From NCBI GenBank assembly GCA_021324445.1, contig JAJPJC010000540.1, positions 1 through 64,000 on the forward strand: a DNA stretch of 64,000 nt, read 5' to 3'. The translations under genes were made by a program, and so were the position numbers. Below, piece by piece: positions 39,562-44,195 of this stretch; within the stretch, counting starts at the first letter, position 1, and every line of letters begins with the position of its first letter. The notes under the pieces are model-generated. The model was given only the letters and a program-made list of their open reading frames with translations, did no database searches and had not been told where the DNA came from. The DNA comes from Isosphaeraceae bacterium (GTDB lineage Bacteria; Planctomycetota; Planctomycetia; Isosphaerales; Isosphaeraceae).

Positions 39562-39609
39562 CCGGGCGCCGGCCGGCCGATCGCCGCGGGAGGGCATCTT
39601 CGTTCGTGG

Positions 39610-39658
39610 GTCAGGCTTTCAGCCTGACTCTTCTGGCACGTCAGGCTTTCCGCCTGAC
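39610..39658. repeat. Two variant GTCAGGC...GCCTGAC palindromes
   Basis: Copies at 39610-39628 and 39640-39658 have 7-base arms GTCAGGC/GCCTGAC with loops tttca and tttcc. They belong to the same family as the copies at 6189 and 31628, but with a different loop. They are located between purL and the NYN gene, upstream of its start. Confidence 0.8.
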
Positions 39659-39704
39659 CTCCATTCTTGATGGCGGATTAACAACCAATCTCATGAAGGA
39701 CTTG

Positions 39705-40538
39705 ATGATGCTGCGATTCGTGACCTTCGTGGACGGCTCGAACCTGGATGGTGTCCTAAAACATCTGAATCTGCGTGTGGATGACTACGGCGCGTTTTAT
39801 CGGCACGCCTTCGAGCAGAGCGTGCACTACTGGGGCCGGACGTTCGCCGAGGGGGCGCGCTGGCCCACCGCCCAGCACTCACGGATCTACTGGTACGTCG
39901 TGGGCAAGATGGACGAGTGGGACCTCAACGACCCCAAGGCGGAGGCGCGGCTGCGGACCCGCTTCGAGATGAACCCGCGGCTGCGCGACGCCTACATCGA
40001 GGACGCCAGCCGCCGCAATCCCGACCTGCCGATGGAGCGCCGCATCGATGAGGCCTGGAACCTCTGCTTCGCCGAGACCCGCGAATGGTACGAGGGCAAG
40101 CGGCGCGCCCTCGAGCGGAAGAAGCGGTTCTACCACGGCGTGCAGGCCGCGACCGACTTCGTCGAGATCCGCCAGGAGGGCCACTGGAAAGTCGACCTGC
40201 TCCATCACACGGTCAACGAGAAGGGGCTCGACACCAGCCTGGCCGTCGACATGGTCGCGCTCCAGGACACCTACGACATCGCGCTGTTGATCTCGGGGGA
40301 CGCCGACGGCATCCCGGGGATCAACTACGTCAAGAGCCGGTCCAAGCACGTCGGGGTCGCCGAATTCCGCCGGGGCTCCCCGGCCGATTTCCCGGCCAAG
40401 GGGACCTCGTCGCGGCTGAAGATCGCCGCCGACTTCGTGGTGCAGGTGTATGAGTCCGAGCTGCTGCGGCGGAACCTGGCCTACCGCTCCGAGTCGGATT
40501 ACGGCTCGCAGTTTGGATCGGCCGACTCCTCCTATTGA
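39705..40538 (+). CDS. NYN-domain (LabA/DUF88-like) nuclease-type protein
   Basis: The protein has a PIN-like NYN fold: first acidic motif FVTFVDGSNLDG at the N-terminus, KVDLLHHTVN...LAVDMVALQD in the middle and LLISGDADGIPGINYVKSRS near residue 225, which together place the Asp residues expected for a metal-dependent RNase. A charged helical insertion (residues about 85-145) is unusual. The start is ATG at 39705 or 39708, both after GAAGGA; the long frame to 39606 is in repeat DNA. It lies 143 bases after purL and 37 before purQ, so it is probably co-expressed with purQ. The role, perhaps RNA turnover or regulation, is unknown. Confidence 0.85.
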   Translation: MMLRFVTFVDGSNLDGVLKHLNLRVDDYGAFYRHAFEQSVHYWGRTFAEGARWPTAQHSRIYWYVVGKMDEWDLNDPKAEARLRTRFEMNPRLRDAYIEDASRRNPDLPMERRIDEAWNLCFAETREWYEGKRRALERKKRFYHGVQAATDFVEIRQEGHWKVDLLHHTVNEKGLDTSLAVDMVALQDTYDIALLISGDADGIPGINYVKSRSKHVGVAEFRRGSPADFPAKGTSSRLKIAADFVVQVYESELLRRNLAYRSESDYGSQFGSADSSY

Positions 40539-41430: not shown

Positions 41431-41838
41431 ATGGCCCATACGCTGACGATCGACGTTCCCGAAACGGTCTACCACAGCCTGGAACGGTGGGCCGCTCATC
41501 ACGGGACCACTCCCGAAGCCCTGGCCCGGGATTGGGTTGCTCGCCGGGTCATCGAACTGGAGAACGATCCCTTGCTGCGCTGGGCGGGTGCGATCGATTC
41601 CGATGTCGCCGATGTCGCCGAACGTCATGATCGGTATCTCGGCCAGGCCCTCCGCCAAGAAGTCCGGGATGATCCGCGAGGATCCGTCGGTTCGCTGACA
41701 CCTCGGGATGGGCCGCTTGGCTCGGGAAGCGAGAGCCCGTTCATGCCTTGGCGGTCTCCCTGGTCACCCAGGCCCGCGGTGATGGACGCCGCCTCGTCAC
41801 GACGAATTATGTCCTCAACGAACTCGTTGCCCTGTTGA
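41431..41838 (+). CDS. VapB-like antitoxin with run-on C-terminus
   Basis: The first 85 residues form an antitoxin-like protein: MAHTLTIDVPETVYHSLERW, then helices with TTPEALARDWVARRVIELENDP and ERHDRYLGQALRQEVRDD. This fits small planctomycete/cyanobacterial antitoxins paired with PIN toxins. The frame should end soon after EVRDD; instead a 10-base duplication (GATCCGCGAG before GATCCG, 41670-41685) removed the stop, so another 40-odd residues of toxin DNA are read in the wrong frame. Removing the ten bases gives ...EVRDDPSVR-stop overlapping the toxin ATG. DNA-binding and toxin-binding parts may still fold. Confidence 0.7.
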   Translation: MAHTLTIDVPETVYHSLERWAAHHGTTPEALARDWVARRVIELENDPLLRWAGAIDSDVADVAERHDRYLGQALRQEVRDDPRGSVGSLTPRDGPLGSGSESPFMPWRSPWSPRPAVMDAASSRRIMSSTNSLPC

Positions 41839-42095
41839 CCAGTCCGTTGCGAATGCCTCGCGGCTAACAAATCCAGCTCGTGACCGATCTGCGCGCCGCC
41901 ACCTGGGTCGATATCATCCACATCGACTCCGCGCTCGATTTGGCGGCATGGGCCTTGTGGCTGTCGCGACCCGATAAGGATTGGAGTTTGGTCGACTGTG
42001 CCAGCTTCGTGATCATGCCACGCCAAGGCTTGACCGAAAGCCTGACGGCTGATCACCATTTCGACCAAGCCGGCTTCATCCGATTGCTGAAGTAG
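41669..42095 (+). pseudogene. PIN-domain (VapC-type) toxin, inactivated twice
   Basis: Read with corrections the product is MIRRFADTSGWAAWL...TTNYVLNELVALLTSPLRM...WSLVDCASFVIM...LTADHHFDQAGFIRLLK, a PIN-domain RNase with acidic residues in FADTS, LNEL and LVDCAS. Two lesions stop it: a 10-base duplication after the first codons puts the start out of frame, and codon TAA at 41865-41867 interrupts the middle (SPLRMPRG-stop-QIQLVTDL), where a Lys codon is expected. The 3' part remains open as a 71-codon frame at 41880-42095, but no ribosome site precedes it. Pairs with the antitoxin at 41431. Confidence 0.8.
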
Positions 42096-42278: not shown

Positions 42279-44195
42279 ATGATCTCGCGAAGCGCGCGCC
42301 GCGTTGCCGTGGTTGTTGTCAGCCAGGTCCTGTGCTGGAGCGGGATCGCCGAGCAGCCCCTGCGTGCCCAGGGACCGCAACCGGCGAAACGAATCGCTGA
42401 GTTCGGCGTGGTCGTCGAGAAGAACGTGATGATCCCGATGCGCGACGGCGTCCGCCTGGCCGCCGACCTCTATCGGCCCGCGCGGAACGGCCAGCCGGTA
42501 GCCGGCCGGTTCCCAGCCGTCTTGACCCGGACTCCCTATGACAAGAACACGAGCAAGACCGAGGGCCACTACTACGCCGAGCGCGGGTATGTCGTGGTCG
42601 CCAACGACGTCCGGGGCCGTTATGCCAGCGAGGGGACCTGGCGGCTGATTGCCGACGATCCTCAAGATGGCTACGACGTGGTGGAGTGGATTGCCCGGCA
42701 GGAGTGGTCCAACGGCAAGGTGGGCACCTTCGGGACGAGCTATCCCGGCGGCACCCAGCATGCCCTGGCCGAGATGAACCCACCCCACTTGACGACGATG
42801 ATCCCGATCGACTCGGTGTCAAACTGCGGCGTCAGCGGGATGAGGCACGGAGGCGCCTTCGAGCTGCGGTTCCTGAACTGGATCTTCCAGACCGGCGCGC
42901 CCAATTCCAAGGCCGCGCTGGCCAACCCCGCGCTGCGGCAGGCCCTGGTCGAGAACGGCCGGCGGATCCGCCAGCACGCCGACAGCCTGCCCGTCCGGCC
43001 CGGAACGACCCCGCTGCGGGTCGTGCCCGAATACGAGGCCTGGCTGGTGGAAGCGATGCGGAGCGGGCCCGAATCGCCGTTCTGGCACATCAAGGGGATG
43101 TCGGTCGTGGACCACATCCGTGACTACGCCGACGTGCCCGTGCTGCACATCACGGGCTGGTACGACTCCTGGGCACGCCAGGTCACCATGAACTACGTGG
43201 CGCTGGCGAAGACGAAGAAATCGCCCCAACGCCTGGTGATCGGCCCCTGGGTCCACGGTGGCCAGACCGCCCACGTGGCCGGTGAGGTCGAGTTCAGTCC
43301 GGAGGCCGGCATCGACTTGCTGGGCTTCCGACTGCGCTGGTACGACCGTTGGCTCCGCGGCGAAACGAACGGCGTGGACGACGACGCGCCGGTGTTGCTC
43401 TATATCATGGGGACCGGTGATGACCGCCGCTCCTCGGCCGGCCGGCTCCGGCATGGCGGCTCCTGGCGCGCCGAGCGCGAATGGCCCCTGGCCCGAGCCA
43501 AGCCGACAGCGTTTTATCTCCACGCCGAAGGCGCGCTCTCGACCGCAGCTCCCTCGCTCGGTACCAGCAGCACAACCTACACCTTCGATCCGCGCCACCC
43601 GGTGCCGACGATCGGCGGCAACATCTCGTCGAACCAGGGTTTGATGACCAACGGCGGCTACGATCAGCGGCCCCGCGACGACACCCACGCCGCCGGCAAC
43701 CGCCTGCCCCTGTCGGAGCGCCGCGACGTGCTGGTCTTCCGCACCGGACCCTTGGAGGCCAACGTCGAAGTTACCGGTACGGTCGAGGTCAAGCTCTGGG
43801 TCGGCTCGAGCGCGCCCGACACCGACTTCACCGCCAAGCTGATCGACGAGATCCCGCCCAATCCGGATTACCCGCTGGGGTTCGACCTCAACATCGGCGA
43901 CTCGATCCTGCGGACGCGCTACCGCGAAGGGCTGGATCACCAGGCTCCGCCGCTGAAGCCCGGCGCGATCGTACCGATCACGATCACGCTCTATCCGACC
44001 GCAAATGTGTTCAAGCGGGGACACCGCATCCGCGTCGATGTTTCGAGCAGCAATTATCCGCGGTTCGACGTCAACCCGAACACCGGCGACCCGCTGGGTG
44101 AGTACCGCCGCAGGGTCCCGGCTGAGAACACTGTTTATCACAGCGCGCTCCACCCTTCAGTCGTGGTCTTGCCCGTGGTGGCGGGATCGCCGTGA
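42279..44195 (+). CDS. CocE/NonD-family serine hydrolase (X-Pro dipeptidyl-peptidase-like), secreted
   Basis: The 638-residue protein has a signal peptide (RRVAVVVVSQVLCWSGIAEQ) and the CocE/NonD fold. IPMRDGVRLAADLYRP starts the alpha/beta domain, VGTFGTSYPGGTQ holds the nucleophile Ser, ITGWYDSW lies near the acidic residue and GPWVHGG gives the His; a C-terminal jelly-roll domain follows (DVLVFRTGPLEANVEVTGTVEVKLWV ... HRIRVDVSSSNYPRFDVN). Relatives cleave esters, amides or X-Pro peptides; the substrate here is unknown. Start ATG at 42279 follows AGGGAGCTCC; the frame before it is not protein-like. It acts outside the cytoplasm. No neighbour points to a pathway. Confidence 0.9.
   Translation: MISRSARRVAVVVVSQVLCWSGIAEQPLRAQGPQPAKRIAEFGVVVEKNVMIPMRDGVRLAADLYRPARNGQPVAGRFPAVLTRTPYDKNTSKTEGHYYAERGYVVVANDVRGRYASEGTWRLIADDPQDGYDVVEWIARQEWSNGKVGTFGTSYPGGTQHALAEMNPPHLTTMIPIDSVSNCGVSGMRHGGAFELRFLNWIFQTGAPNSKAALANPALRQALVENGRRIRQHADSLPVRPGTTPLRVVPEYEAWLVEAMRSGPESPFWHIKGMSVVDHIRDYADVPVLHITGWYDSWARQVTMNYVALAKTKKSPQRLVIGPWVHGGQTAHVAGEVEFSPEAGIDLLGFRLRWYDRWLRGETNGVDDDAPVLLYIMGTGDDRRSSAGRLRHGGSWRAEREWPLARAKPTAFYLHAEGALSTAAPSLGTSSTTYTFDPRHPVPTIGGNISSNQGLMTNGGYDQRPRDDTHAAGNRLPLSERRDVLVFRTGPLEANVEVTGTVEVKLWVGSSAPDTDFTAKLIDEIPPNPDYPLGFDLNIGDSILRTRYREGLDHQAPPLKPGAIVPITITLYPTANVFKRGHRIRVDVSSSNYPRFDVNPNTGDPLGEYRRRVPAENTVYHSALHPSVVVLPVVAGSP

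Follow-up and report, generated by a model that had tools for sequence, protein, structure and literature searches.

A decayed VapBC-like toxin-antitoxin pair in an Isosphaeraceae bacterium, probably broken by small changes and not by a ten-base duplication

The window, meaning the whole stretch of 64,000 nucleotides analysed here, carries in this lineage a decayed type II toxin-antitoxin pair, flanked by purQ on one side and by a peptidase gene of the S15 family on the other. By its sequence the pair is made up of an RHH-like antitoxin and a PIN-domain toxin with putative RNase activity. A first-pass annotation had described a broken VapBC-like pair at this place and this was borne out, as the antitoxin is without its stop, while the toxin is missing a usable start and is interrupted by an in-frame TAA. 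The same annotation explained the damage by a ten-base duplication. Comparison with relatives points instead to one extra base near position 41677, a T to G change at 41680 and a premature stop, a reading to which we give a probability of about three in four. The direction and the order of these changes, like the loss of function, are what we infer from the present sequence, its spacing and the alignments. The locus is an ordinary pair of pseudogenes whose type is known, with a history that is corrected relative to the ten-base account.

The toxin frame matched the PIN domain PF01850 with an E-value of 1.6e-7 and 32.4 bits (cut-off 23.6) using a query with one mistyped residue, Ser for Lys, which left the result unaffected. 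The intact toxin of the nearest relative, L003, scored 39.9 bits. The only solved structures that matched the toxin by sequence were PDB chains of VapC20 of Mycobacterium tuberculosis (E = 2.7e-10; 5wzf and 5wz4, whose PDB name is 23S rRNA-specific endonuclease). VapC20 shares the PIN domain, the DTSxW start of the domain and the acidic residues; however it is distant in sequence, and the window copy has no start codon and an internal stop. When aligned to its relatives the window toxin retains all four PIN acidic residues, encoded by the codons at 41697 (D), 41820 (E), 41994 (D) and 42051 (D), and 18/19 of the columns that are invariant among 19 relatives. NCBIfam and PADLOC returned no accepted match. 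The toxin lacks a start codon and is not open throughout, as there is no ATG, GTG or TTG in its frame between the TGA at 41670 and the conserved FADTSGW, and TAA interrupts it at 41865. Because it has neither a start nor an uninterrupted frame, we regard the toxin as a pseudogene of the VapC-like PIN family and not as a working member. In-frame TGA codons were seen in three other relatives of the toxin (L011, L013 and L048) and decay is therefore not rare in this family.

As in VapBC type II pairs the antitoxin gene comes first, directly upstream of the toxin. It is homologous to antitoxins found upstream of PIN toxins at many loci, and its N-terminal part shares 63.5% identity with the L003 antitoxin over 74 aa. 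Pfam matches to FitA-like_RHH/RHH_5 were weak and below the cut-off (15.2 against 27 bits). The frame starts with ATG at 41431 and, with the stop absent at the junction, is open through to the TGA at 41836, so that it now encodes 135 aa and overlaps the toxin in a different frame. The tail past the junction is toxin sequence in the wrong frame; it amounts to about 52 residues and not to the roughly 40 first counted. In one relative, L018, the antitoxin has a TAA two codons past its motif (positions 2960-2990 of L018), yet the frame beyond continues without a stop as far as the usual overlapping one. This antitoxin is possibly shortened or decaying.

Table 1. Features of the decayed pair, in window coordinates.
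Feature	Position	Strand	Basis or remark
Antitoxin reading frame, with an RHH-like N-terminus and HDRYLGQAL toward the C-terminus	41431..41838	+	Translation, weak Pfam matches, identity to L003
Imperfect period-10 similarity GATCCG-CGAG-GATCCG, first read as a duplication	41671..41686	+	7/10 identity; commonplace in the window
Most likely site of the extra base that relatives lack (antitoxin tail shifted by net +1)	41676..41678	+	38 against 37 nt in 6/7 measurable clade relatives; MAFFT gap opposite 41677
AGGA at the position of the relatives' toxin ATG, one substitution from ATGA, in which toxin ATG and antitoxin TGA would share bases	41679..41682	+	L003 alignment, ATG position in relatives, enumeration, L026
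Toxin frame encoding a PIN domain, start codon missing	41679..42095	+	Pfam PIN, alignment of relatives, VapC20 PDB chains
In-frame stop (TAA), mid-toxin	41865..41867	+	Gln column in nearest relatives
C-terminal fragment of 71 aa from a possible GTG restart	41880..42095	+	Candidate only; no sign of use

Related pairs were sought in 45 genomes of the family, 398 of the class, 392 of the phylum, 95 of the family of genome G279 and in contigs of 84,980 species, and were recovered at 50-67% identity. The search of G279's family gave the same loci as the search of the class, and the phylum draw gave no further close relative apart from the window itself. Viral contigs contained no further close relatives and plasmids only matches of 32-37% identity. 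In the tree the window groups with L003, L044, L051, L047, L052, L053, L049 and L050, all from one class, with weak support (83/53). L003, from genome G003 of the same family, is like the window in gene order and antitoxin motif and its toxin is 67% identical. However, the L003 pair is intact, its genes overlap by eight bases, and it lies at another locus. The two pairs of G279 (L051 and L044) have toxins that are 60% identical and antitoxins that end ...PDVR* within the toxin's FAD codons, and the ...PSVR* of the window may have ended likewise. Unlike the window, both have open toxin frames and a toxin ATG directly before the conserved Phe.

We compared the junctions by the distance from the antitoxin HDxYLGQAL motif to the first conserved Phe of the toxin. 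This spacing was 37 nt in L003, L051, L047, L053, L050 and L052 and 34 nt in L049, with L044 not measurable; over all measured close relatives it ranged from 34 to 52 nt. In the window it is 38 nt, and it becomes 28 nt if ten bases are removed. The frame offset between antitoxin and toxin is 2 in 8/8 clade relatives and 1 in the window. In most relatives the toxin starts with an ATG four codons ahead of the Phe, and the same codon in the window (41679-41681) is AGG. Aligning the window with L003 by MAFFT left a lone one-base gap at 41677 and placed GATGA of L003 opposite GAGGA of the window. Since the gap is of one base and the relatives' ATG falls on the window's AGG, nine of the ten supposedly duplicated bases are the gene's own.

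These observations are consistent with a working ancestor whose genes would have overlapped in the usual way, the toxin starting at an ATG four codons ahead of the conserved Phe. The gain of one base shortly before that start would have shifted the last codons of the antitoxin, and the T to G change at 41680 would have turned the toxin's ATG into AGG. A nonsense change at 41865, probably CAA to TAA, would have interrupted the toxin. Either of the two junction changes may have come first. With the gain as the earlier one, the TGA within ATGA would have terminated the antitoxin, so that the pair could have remained functional and the gain was maybe harmless; L026 shows this ATGA form with an open toxin frame. 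The T to G change alone would in that case have abolished the stop of the antitoxin and the start of the toxin at once. Both signals are restored by just two single substitutions, and one of these gives an ATG at the usual distance, which only 1.3% of shuffled junctions allow. Against this reading, the nearest relative is no direct ancestor, being only 67% identical and at another locus, and the tree around the window is weakly supported. The ancestral start could also have differed. It might have been an ATG next to the Phe, as L051 and L044 have it, or a GTG at 41676.

It is quite possible, though at somewhat less than even odds that are already counted within the figure given above, that the T to G change was the sole lesion at the junction. 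The pair would then have been functional for long with an ATGA overlap and 38-nt spacing, and the TAA would be a separate event. This needs one junction lesion fewer and the exact layout occurs in L026, from an uncultured Acidobacteria, where 38-nt spacing, an ATGA junction and a nine-residue antitoxin tail match the window if 41680 is read as T. L026 nevertheless differs in its open toxin frame, has a toxin only 52% identical, and falls outside the window's clade. All of the clade relatives have the other frame offset, so a one-base gain must nonetheless have happened at some time, here early and without harm.

The sequence GATCCGCGAGGATCCG, in which the ten-base duplication had been read, is present, but at 41671-41686, one base later than claimed. 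Enumeration reproduced the claim that removing ten bases yields an antitoxin ending ...EVRDDPSVR* and a toxin starting MIRRFAD. Both are plausible as the original ends; a single event would account for them, and L051 and L044 have similar antitoxin ends (...EPDVR* and ...GRPDVR*), with their stops at the corresponding position. However, this pair of results is not diagnostic, as 52 different deletions of 1-19 bases, this one among them, and the two single substitutions restore both signals. So many deletions do so because the GCT-GAC codons of the toxin give a TGA in the next frame, in which there is also an ATG at 41669. When the base order of the junction was randomised, and shuffles were kept only if broken likewise, 45% could be rescued by a deletion of 12 bases or fewer and 22% by a deletion of exactly ten. 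The two units, GATCCGCGAG and GATCCGTCGG, are identical at only 7/10 positions, contiguously only over the first six, and the 64 kb window contains 37 six-base repeats at period 10. A ten-base event also needs an ancestor with 28-nt spacing, shorter than in any measured close relative, and the insertion would have reached the clade's 37 nt plus one by chance. We rejected a tandem duplication of ten bases on the spacing and the poor repeat match, and we consider it unlikely that both genes were lost to any single insertion or duplication of that length. A neat indel story drawn from one sequence can fail once relatives are compared.

The first-pass annotation had expected Lys at the position of the TAA. 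This column is Gln in L003 (CAG), in L018, and in L053 and L049 (CAA/CAG), and Lys in four more distant relatives. Judged by these codons the TAA most likely replaced Gln and not Lys, and CAA to TAA is the simplest guess. The TAA had also been taken as a later gain, and the distribution of changes lends this no support. Depending on the outgroup, the private changes upstream of the TAA number 0-2 in the window lineage and 5-9 in L003, and those downstream of it 6-11 and 1-5. Scored against the outgroup majority residue, Fisher p is 0.002-0.06 by outgroup set, with small counts, overlapping outgroup sets and a contrast that comes partly from L003's own changes. This hints at the opposite order, in which the TAA would be older than the loss of the start. 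The end branches are 0.30 for the window and 0.28 for L003, and the decay looks recent because the two are about equally long. Divergence from L003 at codon positions 1-3 is 0.26, 0.18 and 0.545, so that constraint is still visible. Either the loss is recent or the sequence contains errors.

Errors are conceivable since the genome is a draft of 567 contigs with 8.5% contamination, and the rest of the toxin is normally conserved. For the pair to be intact in the organism, however, three separate errors (the extra base, T to G and the nonsense change) would be needed within 200 bases, and the excess of changes after the TAA fits real decay. We think sequencing or assembly error improbable as the whole explanation, a little more so than the ten-base event. 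Another alternative is that the run-on antitoxin, the toxin halves or both were put to new use as an extended regulator or a split toxin, and the low number of private changes in the N-terminal half of the toxin compared with the C-terminal half would fit this. The first half has no start, though, on which ground we judged a split toxin unlikely. No clear ribosome-binding site precedes the GTG of the second half, and the antitoxin tail is only out-of-frame toxin. New use is the least probable of the explanations weighed, and very improbable.

Decayed toxin-antitoxin pairs are common. If the junction was broken as we propose, an ATGA overlap would let one base change disable the signals of both genes, a safe way to lose a toxin. 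That such a junction acts as a general one-hit site, at which one change removes the toxin start and lengthens the antitoxin and never frees the toxin, is a speculation we hold doubtful. If true, decayed overlapping pairs might show the ATGA change as a favoured exit route. A search of the open-access literature with few terms found no report of this junction effect. Pseudogenes of toxin-antitoxin systems have been mapped across mycobacteria (PMC2781298), and a further report describes a type II system that is inactive and has a different role (PMC11826091).

Among the 45 family genomes purQ is present in 43, and we found no syntenic intact copy of the pair. The antitoxin was encoded at 0 of the relatives' purQ loci examined, and no toxin match from the search of the family fell at these loci. 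The S15-family gene (X-Pro dipeptidyl-peptidase type, 42279-44192, + strand) lies 3' of the pair in the window; its relatives are 51-80% identical and lie away from purQ, far from it in complete or near-complete genomes such as G001, G027 and G037. Either this lineage acquired the pair next to purQ or the neighbourhood was rearranged here. Between purL and purQ the window also encodes a NYN-domain protein (39606-40538, + strand; PF01936, 30.6 bits), and a NYN gene is beside purQ in 28/29 of the relatives' loci examined. At these loci the protein is 79-94% identical, against 66-77% for purQ and 47-61% for the end of purL. This putative RNase, conserved above its biosynthetic neighbours, seems worth attention.
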